Program-made: the position numbers and the translations under genes | Shown here: positions 15,000 through 38,767 of the stretch, in pieces | Layout of the letters: every line of letters begins with the position of its first letter | Position numbering within the stretch: position 1 is the stretch's first letter | The notes under the pieces: generated by a model | Seen by the model: only the letters and a program-made list of their open reading frames with translations | The model's database searches: none | What the model was told of the DNA's origin: nothing | Source: Flectonema sp. DT1601 | Taxonomy: Eukaryota; Euglenozoa; Diplonemea; Diplonemida; Diplonemidae | Direction: 5' to 3' | DNA length: 64,000 nucleotides | Assembly (NCBI GenBank): GCA_964019425.1 | Contig: OZ025852.1 | Span: 440,501-504,500 of the forward strand

Positions 15000-15243
15000 T
15001 TCATTGTATTTGTTTTCTCCCTCATGACGTTATTACGAAATATTCCCACTAACGATCATTATTAACGATCGAGGTTTGTTGCTTTGTTCTACTGCAGACG
15101 ATACCTTTATCTTGATACGTAGATTTCCACCCTTTAGTGAGATATGATATGTCTGAGTGGTGTGTAGGTTGTTTTGAGTATTACTTGTGAGTATCTTTTA
15201 TTCTTCTCTTCAGAAATTTTAATCAAAAAGACACATAATAAAT

Positions 15244-17205
15244 ATGCAGTGGTCACGCCTTTCTGCCCTCGTTGGGACAGTTCTGTTGTCGGACGTTGCT
15301 CTCGCTGGTCAATGTGATTCCAAGCAACCAGTTTGCGTTGGTAATGGACCAGTTTGCAATGACAACTGTGATGGAGGGTACTCATGCGCCAGCATGGCGA
15401 AGTCTTACAGCTGTCAGGAGTTAGCGACCTTCAGCAACTGCAACGCCGGGAAATGCGATTGCACTTGTCCTCCTGGTGCACCAGTACCAGCGCCAACGCA
15501 GCCGAAGCAGGGACAATGCAGCGGGAAAACATCTTCCCCATGTTACGCCCCACTGGCGACGTGGCAGAAGGATGCAATCATTGCCAGACACAATGAGATT
15601 CGTTCGAAGCACGGAGCTTGTCCTCTTGTTTACGATCAGGCGATCGCTGACTACTCTTTGAGCAGCAGCGGGTTCAAGAAAACTTGCAGCTACAAGTCGC
15701 TCACTCACAATAGCCCACCTGAGTACGCAGGAGGAAGACTCGGAGAGAACTTGGCGTACGTTGGAGGAAAAACTGACATGCACAACTGGGATGTCAACGC
15801 GGGTACCGAGATGTGGTACTGTGGTGAGGAAGGTTGTTGGGACTACGGTGGTTCCCGTTCGAATGGAGCTACTGGACACATGACTCAATTGGTTTGGAAG
15901 AAGACGACGAAGTTCGGATGTGGTTTGTGCCACGTTACGAGCGGACAGCTCTTGAACGTGTACTTGATTTGTAACTACGAAGTGGCTGGAAACTGGGGAA
16001 AGATGGGACCAGGACACGACTACGAGGAGAACATTGGAAGGTATGGTGAGACTCCAACCGGCTGTGTGAACTCACCACCTGCGAACAACGAATGTGACGC
16101 CACTCCATGTCCATCAGGTCAGACCTGTGCCGACCCTGACACCGCCAACGACAACGACTTCACATGTACTTGCGACAATACCCCTTCGATTGTTGCAACT
16201 GGAGGAGCAGCAACCTGCACAACACCAACACAGAAACCTACAGATAAACCTACACCGAAGCCTACACCGAAGCCTACACCGAAGCCAACACAGGATCCTA
16301 ACACCAACGAAAACGAGTGTGACAAGAACCCGTGTGATGCTGCTCAAAGCCAGACTTGCAATGATCCATCACAAACTACTGCTGGCGATTTCGTTTGCAC
16401 CTGTCCTAACGGAGCAACTGTCACTGGAGGACCTGTTGTTAAATGTGAAGTAAATGAGTGTGATAACAAGCCTTGTGGTATGGGACAGGACTGCAGTGAT
16501 CCAAACATGGCAGCAAACATGCTTTTGGACTTCGTGTGCACCTGCAAAAACAATGATGCGATGATGACAGGTAAGCCTGCTGACTGTACACCGGTATGTT
16601 AGTCACTCCGTGTATCTATTGTTGTACTGTAAATAAAATGTACCAAATAACTTAAACTAAAATAGGCTTCCACACACGTGCCATCCACGCAGTCACCTCC
16701 GGGAAGCACTGCTACTCCAGTTCCAGGCACCCCTGCTCCAACTCAGCCAAATGTATGATACGTTCAATTTAGTAGAAGTTCTGTATTTATAAATACTTTA
16801 TCTGTACAATAACATAACCAAAACAGGATACACCAGTTCCAACTACTATGGCCCCACCAGGAAGTAAGGCTACTCCTGTTCCTGACACTATTGCACCAGG
16901 TACTACATTGGTATGATTGTCTCTTGTAGAAAAGTTGAAAAACCATTTTGTCCTCGTGTTTATTTTTATGTTAACAATAACAGGGTTCCACCGAAGAAAA
17001 GAAGACCAGTGACGATGACAGCAGCAACTGGTGGGTGTGGTTGTTGGTTGCAATTGCTGCTCTTCTTGCGATCATCGGAGCGATTGCCGCCTTCATTATG
17101 ATGAAGAGAAAGAGTGAAAGTGTATCGTTTCAGAAATACATTGCTCGTTCCGAGCCAGGTAATGGAGGAAACCAGCCTCTAAACGACAATAGTGCAAGTC
17201 TGTAG
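15244..17205 (+). CDS. CAP-domain surface protein with 3 EGF-like repeats, array copy 1, 580 aa
   Basis: Four exons: 15244-16593, 16666-16752, 16827-16910 and 16984-17205. All introns are phase 0, with GTATGT/GTATGA donors and ATAG or ACAG acceptors. A signal peptide (about 1-21, cleavage after VALA) precedes a Cys-rich segment (to about residue 78) and a CAP/SCP domain (about 105-265). The CAP signatures are RHNEIR, GRLGENLAY, GHMTQLVW and YLICNYEVAGNW. Then follow one EGF-like repeat, a Lys-Pro-Thr linker, two more EGF-like repeats (C-x4-C-x(5-7)-C-x(n)-C-x-C-x(n)-C), a Pro/Thr-rich stalk spread over exons 2-3, one membrane helix and a 30-residue tail with SVSFQKYIAR. The product is a type I plasma-membrane protein. 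CAP proteins bind sterols or lipids, or act in immunity or adhesion; the role here is unknown. Confidence 0.9.
16245..16292 (+). repeat. 12-base minisatellite encoding Lys-Pro-Thr-Pro
   Basis: Tandem units of the type CCTACACCGAAG encode KPTP repeats in the linker between EGF-like repeats 1 and 2. Array copy 2 has fewer units (near 21541-21560) and an extra ACACCAACA stretch just before them. The difference is a length polymorphism between paralogues. Confidence 0.8.
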
Positions 17206-17846
17206 TCAGTTACTTGTAATTGAATTAACAAACAGTGAAGCATTCAACACTCACAAGGGTGTGAATAAATAGAAAAGTAACTCTGATGTCTTTTAATTGC
17301 AATTAGCCAGCTGCCAACCCCCCCCCAAAAAAAAAAAATATATATTAGTTAATTGCGTGTATCACTTACAACAATTAAATTCCCAATTTCCCTAATGTCA
17401 AAGTTTTCTTTCTCTGACTAGATCTGAGTGAAACAGTTGAAGTCTCAAGGTACCGTAATGCTTCCCTAATAAGGTTCCATTTCTGCCTTGCGGTTAGGTG
17501 CTTTGCTTTCTATCTTAACAGTTTTCCCCCACAGAGAGGGCGATTGGTTTCGTCTTCGTTTTTGATATGTCGGTATGATTTAATTTAATTTAATTTAATT
17601 TATTTTATTTTTTTTTTTTGAAAACCCTCTCGCTTTCCTATTGTGCTGCATCTGTTGTTCGATTCCCTCCCTTACTTCCCGATTTTCCTTACAAGTGGTG
17701 TTTTTTAGGCTATATAACTGGGACAGTATCCATTTCTCTGGATGATGCCGAAAAGTTTATCACAAAATAAGATGACTACGTTCAATGGATGCAGTGAGTT
17801 CTGTTTGTTTCGTTTTTTTAATTTCCCCCTCTCAATTTTTACTATG

Positions 17847-37302: not shown

Positions 37303-38659
37303 GTTGTTTCGTTTTTAATTCTTTATTAAAATTATATGTTATCTATACCTTGAAAGGGTGATTAGCTTCATCTTTGACAGTTATTGTTTGTTTCTAAGAT
37401 GTTTGTTTTCTTCAAGCAACATATAATTTGATTTTATTTAAATTCCCTTTTCCCCACCCCCCCTATCGATCTCATCTACATATCGTACCGCGGTGAACTT
37501 CTACATCATAACGTCCATCTATTATCGGACAAGGGTGGAAAAGCTGAGAATGGCATGCCGTGTCAGGGATACTCCATCAGTCTAGCCTAGCCTACCATAA
37601 CAATTCTAACTTGGGTCTGCTTATGTTGCTGTTGCCTCTTGGCTCTATGAATATGCGATGTAATGCGTTTCCTGAGAACCCTTGTTTTCTTTTTTTTTCC
37701 CGTTCTTTAAAAAGTCATTCACGCATTAGTGTTGATAATCCTAGGGTTATATAACTAGGGGGAGGCAAAATAAAACTAAGTCTCATTTTTTTTTTTAATA
37801 CTTTTTTTTCAATTGAAAAACGAAAAGATCAGATCTTAACTAAACTAAACTAACTAGATCTTCATATGAGGTCGATAAGAAGCATAGCAATATAGGTTTT
37901 AATTTTTTTTTGTAGTTTTTTTTTTTTTTTTTTTTTTTTTTTTTTTAAAGTTACTCTTTTTTAAAAAATTGATAGTAGCGTTTCTCATTATTCTAATGAG
38001 ATGACGCGCTTTCTTCAGTACTTTTAACAAACTAATTTAAAATTAATTCTTGTTTGCTCTCAGCACTAGAATCGCTGTGGTGTTTTGTTGTGCGGAAACG
38101 TACTCTCAGTGCGTAACCTGCCCGAGTGCAGAAGTACTGGTATGCGATTCGGATAGTTGCTGAGGTACAGAATGAACCAACACCCCTTTCCTTTTTTATT
38201 TGTTCCTCTTTAAAGAGAAAGCTAACTAGTGCTACATCTCCTATTTCTGACTAGCTTGTGTATGTAACAGTTGATTATGACAAGGCACTTTCACATCACG
38301 AACCTGGAACTGTTTAGCTGCAAGCTAGTAGTATCCCGTCCCATGACATTTCAGACATGGTGAGTCGTGATCTGTGAGTGTTTGTTATATTTGTTGTTCC
38401 ACTCTTGTATTTCCTACAAGCTTCTATTTTTTAAAATGAATTCCTCCTCTCTTTGTCCCTGTTTGCTCTTTCTTGCAAGTTTTCCCACGAATACACTCAA
38501 ACTCACTCTCCCAACACAAGACTCCAGCATGTCTGGTTTCGTAGGATGTGTTCGGTTGCGACCCATTTCGCATGGCCAGCCACTTCTTTAGCTGAAAGTT
38601 ACTTTCTGGATTACTGTTTGCTTGTTAACATTTGTTTGCCGTCAGGTTCTACAACAATA
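37303..38659. other. Spacer between copy 4 and truncated copy 5
   Basis: No gene recognised. The part from about 38030 onwards repeats the sequence upstream of copy 4. A long T-run lies at about 37915-37946. Confidence 0.6.
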
Positions 38660-38767
38660 ATGAATTTGTTTCACTTGTCTGTCCTAATCGGGACAGCACT
38701 GTTTTCGGACGTTGCTCTCGCTGGTCAATGTGATTCCAGGCAACCAGTTTGCGTCCTTCGAATGTAG
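38660..38767 (+). pseudogene. Truncated CAP/EGF gene, array copy 5
   Basis: The sequence matches the first 31 codons of copies 3 and 4 (MNLFHLSVLIGTALFSDVALA...QPVCV) and then breaks off at about 38754 into unrelated T-rich DNA, reaching a stop four codons later. Only the signal peptide and a few residues remain. About 600 bases of upstream sequence are also duplicated. It marks the edge of the array. Confidence 0.85.

Follow-up and report, generated by a model that had tools for sequence, protein, structure and literature searches.

Here we describe a tandem gene array in a 64,000-nucleotide stretch of the genome of the diplonemid Flectonema sp. DT1601, a marine flagellate and trypanosome relative (assembly GCA_964019425.1, contig OZ025852.1, positions 440,501 to 504,500 of the forward strand). 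We refer to this whole stretch as the window, and coordinates without a contig label are relative to it. The array consists of four intact genes (g1 to g4) and one 35-codon stub, all on the + strand. The intact genes encode, in order, a signal peptide, a Cys-rich segment, a CAP domain, six-cysteine repeats resembling epidermal growth factor (EGF) modules, a Pro/Thr stalk, a membrane helix, and a tail. An earlier sequence-only reading of this DNA had proposed four complete genes and a truncated copy with these parts, all of which are present according to the spliced models, hydropathy, and Pfam CAP matches. That reading placed the start of the array at 15130, which is too early, the first gene beginning at 15244.

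A tandem array of four intact genes and a stub

The short-rod genes g1 and g2 have four exons each and the long-rod genes g3 and g4 have three each (Table 1, where codon totals include the stop codon). All 10 introns are GT-AG introns with a GTATG donor and range from 72 to 514 nucleotides, and their removal yields open frames. The first introns of g3 and g4 contain long (AAAAC)n arrays of unequal length (approximately 30043 to 30290 and 36491 to 36902). The region of the stub is 97.9% identical to g4 across 340 bp (38415 to 38754), and no more g4 remnant was found past the stub as far as 42000. Each start codon is preceded at 14 to 30 nucleotides by an AG with a pyrimidine-rich tract. The g1/g2 similarity block starts at the predicted spliced-leader acceptor of g1, and g4 and the truncated copy each have a predicted acceptor that, judged by eye, is similar to that of g3.

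CAP heads joined to a predicted membrane helix

The Pfam CAP scan covered g1 and the first exon of g4, and PF00188 matched both (E = 1.6e-12, 48.8 bits against a cutoff of 21.1). The heads of g2 and g3 are 97% and 92% identical to that of g1, respectively, and were assigned by homology. Pry1 and GAPR-1 are the nearest solved structures by sequence. The predicted g1 model agrees with this placement, matching 5jys, 4aiw, and 5ete with E values of 2e-8 to 7e-8 and template-modeling scores by target of 0.75 to 0.80, and the predicted alpha-beta-alpha CAP fold of the head is well supported. The His-Glu-Glu-His cavity tetrad is complete in all four window genes and in 14 of the 17 sequences of our head alignment (its fourth residue was taken from printed alignment segments), and it is incomplete in the database proteins P0018, P0020, and P0022. 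P0020 and P0022 lack tetrad residues in their CAP heads yet retain the rod, helix, and tail, which may reflect a change of head function. An Asn-x-x-Arg pair conserved across the CAP superfamily, as described in PMC7979774, is invariant in this family (N117 and R120). Cholesterol binding by Pry1 requires Mg, which one of its crystal forms shows bound to the tetrad (PMC4921858); this makes a lipid ligand possible for the head. The caveolin-binding aromatic loop, compared by eye with its consensus, keeps two of its three aromatics in the window genes (CWDYGGSRSNG), and the third is retained in P0016, P0017, and P0007. Structure prediction gave no confident model for the N-terminal Cys-rich segment. 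A phage origin was also considered and dropped, with no phage match to the first 383 residues of g4.

Hydropathy identifies one helix near the C terminus and a hydrophobic N terminus in all four products; signal peptides were judged by eye together with this N-terminal hydropathy. A K/R cluster lies after the helix, in a charged tail of approximately 30 to 40 residues. The g1 to g4 products are predicted type I membrane proteins. A glycosylphosphatidylinositol (GPI) anchor, as in the SAG proteins of Eimeria, was set aside, the helix being followed by a charged tail in four of four.

The joining of the CAP domain to the membrane helix, which the sequence-only reading had proposed for the spliced products, holds at the level of the family. 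Four paralogs carry the CAP domain, repeats, helix, and tail in a single intron-free frame. Three are on contig C59 (2617, 2422, and 2258 amino acids, counted from an upstream Met) and one is on C73 (1081 amino acids), 22 kb upstream of g1 and beyond the window. The EukProt transcript proteins P0005, P0008, and P0016 likewise join a CAP domain to a helix and tail. The existence of membrane-anchored CAP/EGF-like proteins, also proposed earlier, is supported.

The cytosolic tails share features beyond the window. After the helix, the motif [VILP]-x-[FLVM]-x-[DENK]-[FY] occurs in 21 of 22 tails of this genome, the last residue is V, I, or L in all 22, and in 19 the antepenultimate residue is also one of V, I, L, M, F, Y, or W; these tails were gathered by similarity to four tails, which makes the common motif partly a product of construction. 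Among 15 database tails chosen by eye from 33 proteins, the motif is present in 9, a V/I/L end in 13, and the strict rule for the end holds in 8. Across the full set of 20 database proteins that have both a helix and a tail, the corresponding counts are 10, 15, and 9, the last two taken from the printed tail ends. Hand-picked genome tails satisfy the strict rule in 9 of 10 cases (binomial 7e-14 against tail composition, a value that for kin tails is no true probability). Many tail ends resemble putative class II PDZ ligands, and the genome contains 35 PDZ matches. A C-terminal hydrophobic residue can also serve as an endoplasmic reticulum export signal, so the PDZ reading is only a lead.

Rods counted in repeat pairs

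An anchor pattern, [FYW]xCxC, counts 3 repeats each in g1 and g2 and 22 each in g3 and g4, while a strict six-cysteine pattern counts 3, 3, 21, and 21. The earlier claim of 3 or 22 EGF-like repeats holds for the counts by the anchor pattern. Pfam recovered CAP and left EGF below its cutoff, with PF00008 reaching an E value of 6.3 in the g1 repeats and nothing appearing in the g4 rod at E values up to 10. A relative, P0012, has a near-threshold Pfam EGF match (20.2 against 21.5 bits). The repeats have six cysteines, of which the fourth and fifth form a C-x-C, and the median loops are 4, 5, 14, 1, and 14 residues over 21 g4 repeats. An AlphaFold model of the g4 rod segment 33762 to 34722 reached a predicted local distance difference test score (pLDDT) of 85 and a predicted template-modeling score (pTM) of 0.36. 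Foldseek found no significant match to this model, and VIA-align ranked Notch-type EGF chains as its best neighbors, at low Z. We use the name EGF-like because of the cysteine spacing, these low-scoring Notch-type neighbors, and the near-threshold match of P0012; the predicted EGF fold of the repeats is weakly supported. A comparison of the 22 repeats of g3 and g4 with the consensus of calcium-binding EGF (cbEGF) gave counts of 21 for [DN]EC and 28 for C-x-[DN]-[PAGR], with a loop longer than that of cbEGF.

The long rods of the genome share an even number of repeats. We counted the 16 rods that continue from a head in the same frame and found 42, 34, 26, 26, 28, 18, 30, 40, 46, 42, 38, 30, 70, 16, 22, and 22 repeats. 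The number is even in 16 of 16 (range, 16 to 70), although the genes are kin and do not represent 16 independent tests. Neighboring repeats are 38 to 44% identical and next-but-one repeats are 44 to 74% identical, with a small gap between the two in g3, g4, and the C24:397k rod. This greater likeness of next-but-one repeats indicates that the unit of the rod is a repeat pair, which has become blurred in some rods. A repeat ending in CxMG occupies an odd position from the N-terminal side in all 14 rods that have one (the C18 and C32 rods do not), and the even totals thus place it at an even position from the C-terminal side. A six-repeat profile built around the CxMG repeat finds one clearly best, near-full-length block in P0017 to P0020, P0022, and P0023, whose heads are of two-CAP, poly-CAP, unassigned, and astacin types. 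The block is partial in P0016 and P0026, no single block stands out in P0021 and P0024, and the profile finds none in P0025, P0027 to P0029, P0031, or P0033. Judged from these repeat patterns, rods seem to gain and lose repeats in pairs on either side of a fixed block. Shorter rods also occur, with three repeats in g1, g2, and C73:433k and none in the same frame for the heads at C40:684k, C24:427k, and C8. Three C40 rod frames continue into a different, pentamer repeat, (CCVVL)n, which probably sits within an intron.

A genome-wide family with apparent module exchange

A search of the genome with the g4 head returned 30 matches, among which 23 loci have at least 50% identity over most of the head, in addition to the stub. 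Contig C24 holds six of these loci, C73 five, C40 four, C59 three, and C2, C18, C8, C30, and C32 one each. The family extends past the array, which is one of several clusters among the 23 head loci, and the recent local expansion noticed in the sequence-only reading is supported. At C30:569425-570313 the head is split over two frames that are 70% and 63% identical to g4, which suggests either an intron within the head or a broken gene. A CAP profile run over the genome gave 59 matches. Tandem CAP domains account for 23 of the 59 and lie in four frames, three on C19 (6, 6, and 8 domains) and one on C39 (3 domains). After the CAP domains, these frames continue with a stalk, a helix, and a tail that resemble those of the rod proteins. 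These multi-CAP frames are located at C19:627403-646850 and C39:1026114-1027856, with CAP domains approximately 226 to 233 codons apart. Matches on C19 beyond 645000, C39, C74, C52, C31, C2:277k, C76, C3, C4, C68, C5, and C30 were read only as short CAP loci.

A phylogeny of the heads groups them mostly by contig (C40, C59, C24, and g1 to g4), with C73:433k standing apart. The EukProt protein P0002 joins the C59 heads with a support of 0.993. Together with the grouping by contig, this placement suggests that the subfamilies predate the species and that the local copies are young. The head of another database protein, P0015, is identical to those of two C24 genes.

The sequence divergence among the window genes differs sharply from one part to another. 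Synonymous divergence (dS) between g3 and g4 is lowest for the rod (0.011), higher for the head (0.098), and highest for the part that follows exon 1 (0.43). Between g1 and g4 it is 0.106 in the head and approximately 2.1, a saturated value, in the last 101 codons, and between g1 and g2 it is 0.03. In the head tree, g4 pairs with g1 (0.90) and not with g3. The four genes appear to be mosaics whose heads, rods, and tails have been exchanged between copies, and gene conversion or ectopic exchange would be the simplest cause. The ratio of nonsynonymous to synonymous divergence (dN/dS) of the head is 0.29 to 0.50 in all six gene pairs, a pattern of purifying selection on the heads. Locally, the ratio between g3 and g4 rises to 0.71 in head codons 1 to 150 and 0.75 in the short end after exon 1, both below 1.

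Genomic context

Beyond the array, the window has 16 stop-to-stop frames of at least 200 amino acids, and every one lies on the + strand. A Pfam scan of + strand neighbors matched 6 of the 11 frames scanned (FMO-like, Cac1_C, UPRTase, SNAP, eIF-6, and guanylate kinase with PTP-like phytase). The last of these is a 1992-codon frame at 57859 to 63837 that combines the guanylate-kinase and PTP-like phytase matches within one product. Rfam gave no match over the window.

A spliced-leader pattern, searched with up to two mismatches, occurs 753 times in the genome (309 forward and 444 reverse; control, 0), and the matches listed include arrays of 610 and 623 bp. The complete leader exon reads ACCAACGATTCTAAAGCT-ACAGTTTCTGTACTTTATTG, with GT directly after it in the C16 array, and we take the full exon to be the diplonemid form. 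The 3' 16 bases of the 20-base leader match are common to trypanosomatids as well. Besides the full exon, the cis introns of the array genes and the homologues, among which Diplonema papillatum is the only organism named, point to a diplonemid. Among eight scattered complete leader exons (L029 to L036), seven have no following GT, three pairs have common downstream sequence, and one has part of a second leader. From their sequence, these look like reinserted copies of trans-spliced mRNAs. Diplonemid genes are described in D. papillatum as lying in one-directional, probably co-transcribed clusters and as receiving their leaders through trans-splicing (PMC10161547).

Table 1. Features of the CAP/EGF-like array, in window coordinates
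Feature	Position	Strand	Structure or remark
g1, short-rod CAP protein	15244-17205	+	exons 15244-16593, 16666-16752, 16827-16910, 16984-17205; open spliced frame, 581 codons
g2, short-rod CAP protein	20529-22475	+	exons 20529-21863, 21936-22022, 22097-22180, 22254-22475; open spliced frame, 576 codons
g3, long-rod CAP protein	25906-30751	+	exons 25906-29955, 30294-30407, 30530-30751; 1462 codons
g4, long-rod CAP protein	32352-37302	+	exons 32352-36401, 36916-36984, 37060-37302; 1454 codons
Truncated fifth copy (5' end of long-type gene)	38660-38767	+	35 codons, then stop
Predicted spliced-leader acceptor of g1	15197-15213	+	pyrimidine tract, AG 30 nucleotides before ATG; by eye
Predicted spliced-leader acceptor of g3	25877-25891	+	AG 14 nucleotides before ATG; by eye
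CAP domain of g1, residues 114-245	15583-15978	+	Pfam; tetrad His155, Glu168, Glu195, His212
CAP domain of g2	20868-21263	+	same residues by homology
CAP domain of g3	26245-26640	+	same residues by homology
CAP domain of g4, residues 114-245	32691-33086	+	Pfam
Three six-cysteine EGF-like repeats of g1	16093-16593	+
Three six-cysteine EGF-like repeats of g2	21378-21863	+
g3 rod, 22 EGF-like repeats	26755-29955	+
g4 rod, 22 EGF-like repeats	33201-36401	+
Membrane-helix/cytosolic-tail exon of g1	16984-17205	+
Membrane-helix/cytosolic-tail exon of g2	22254-22475	+
Membrane-helix/cytosolic-tail exon of g3	30530-30751	+
Membrane-helix/cytosolic-tail exon of g4	37060-37302	+

Discussion

We give an even chance to the explanation that these genes form a modular family of surface receptors or adhesins, with a CAP head on an EGF-like rod, exchanged modules, and a common tail route. 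A type I membrane protein would display a CAP domain of the Pry1/GAPR-1 type, with the whole tetrad, at the tip of a rod held at the membrane by one helix and a Pro/Thr-rich stalk, which is perhaps O-glycosylated. The short cytosolic tail would present a motif like V-x-F-x-[DE]-[FY] and often a hydrophobic-x-hydrophobic end suiting a class II PDZ domain, and related tails would connect several head types to one sorting route or partner in the cytosol. The proteins would act as contact receptors or adhesins whose heads bind a ligand (lipid, glycan, or protein) on prey, on particles, or on partner cells, with rod length setting their reach. Copies would arise via tandem duplication and rods would change length in two-repeat steps, while gene conversion or ectopic exchange would move heads, rods, and tails and thereby spread a favored head over rods of different length. 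An adhesion or recognition role, as first suggested from the sequence, is plausible. A combinatorial receptor system is a tentative proposal that falls short of an even chance. It would have swappable heads (one CAP domain, as many as eight in a string, an astacin-type protease, or unassigned), an EGF-like rod counted in pairs round a fixed central block, a common stalk-helix-tail module docking to one PDZ-type partner, and ongoing exchange of heads, rods, and tails through gene conversion. The lower shares of matching tails over all 20 database proteins make it slightly less probable.

Among other explanations, a receptor that captures lipids or sterols, with a head that binds sterols or fatty acids like Pry1 and a rod and tail that deliver the cargo for uptake, would be favored by the nearest structure by both sequence and fold, that of a cholesterol binder with a Mg-binding tetrad, and by the complete tetrad of all four window genes. 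The Pry1-type aromatic loop is only partly kept in these genes, however, and varying rod length would have no obvious use, and we regard lipid capture as unlikely. Recognition of self or of mates, in which heads and rods mediate same-species contact as compared with yeast Pry3, strikes us as rather improbable, since near-identical tandem copies would give little specificity. It can nevertheless draw on the Pry3 CAP domain, which is described as inhibiting mating independently of lipid binding (PMC7340583), and on the subfamily of P0002 and the C59 heads, which seems older than the species.

The sequence-only reading had also raised antigenic variation, under which the array would be a reservoir of variant heads, subject to diversifying selection and read one at a time. 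This suggestion is not supported and we consider it very improbable: purifying selection on the whole heads, which are kept alike in every pair, argues against it, and the neighbors, all on the + strand, fit the one-directional and probably co-transcribed clusters of D. papillatum (PMC10161547). The organism is also not known to have a host. The tandem arrangement, truncated copy, mosaic copies, and several clusters would suit such a reservoir, as would the raised dN/dS of g3-g4 codons 1 to 150. That the array is wrongly assembled or consists mostly of pseudogenes is extremely improbable. One copy is indeed a stub, but the frames are open in the other four, the copies diverge (dS of 0.011 to 0.43 across parts of g3 and g4 and 0.03 between g1 and g2), and the intergenic DNA is distinct. 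Moreover, g2 (as P0001), g3/g4, and one C24 product recur in records of 401,900 and 73,693 bases, which are possibly not independent.

The surface receptor or adhesin family that we favor is assembled from parts with known relatives. Members of the Pry1/GAPR-1/PR-1 branch have the same CAP fold and tetrad and provide the nearest solved structures, but are small proteins of approximately one CAP domain, in contrast to the Cys-rich segment, CAP head, rod, and membrane helix found here. GLIPR1, whose structure is among the fold matches of the g1 model, has the same CAP domain without an EGF rod and is membrane-anchored in vertebrates. Notch and Delta are likewise type I membrane proteins with long rods of tandem EGF modules and gave the best structural rows, whereas the repeats here come in pair units and have longer loops at C3-C4 and at C5-C6 (each with a median of 14). 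Human CLEC18 also has CAP followed by EGF-type modules, with one EGF module, one EGF-like module, a C-type lectin domain, and no 22-repeat rod (PMC11103991), and it is termed a secretory protein (PMC10269929). Pfam scans of g1 and of the first g4 exon found no C-type lectin domain. The SAG proteins of the parasite Eimeria are likewise a membrane-anchored multigene family of a protist with a CAP-related fold, but they have a GPI anchor and no EGF rod, and no lipid pocket is described for SAG19 (PMC7979774). The earlier view that membrane-anchored CAP proteins are unusual as such was thus overstated. Several CAP domains per chain, as in the C19 and C39 genes, recall the Na-ASP-1 type, which has two (PMC4921858); the C19 and C39 frames have 3, 6, 6, and 8, together with a helix and tail similar to those on the rod proteins. 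A Diplonema papillatum protein named "Neurogenic locus Notch protein" (P0028) shows related repeats and a membrane helix in another diplonemid, although it has no CAP match and its 449-residue tail lacks the motif.

The terms "EGF" and "surface protein" are absent from the main text of the D. papillatum genome paper and of a Euglenozoa comparison (PMC7052976). Among the open-access papers listed by our searches, we found no report of this diplonemid CAP/EGF-rod family. The family is real, large, and modular, and the window holds a young mosaic array of it. Its parts are of known kinds; what appears new, at least to us, is the way CAP and rod are combined, the even number of repeats per rod, and the exchange of heads. 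A relative, Paradiplonema papillatum, is reported to be genetically modifiable (PMC12621601). A modular family with a recognizable binding head offers a handle on how diplonemids touch prey, each other, or lipids, and the array is a clear example from nature of tandem genes that appear to exchange modules.

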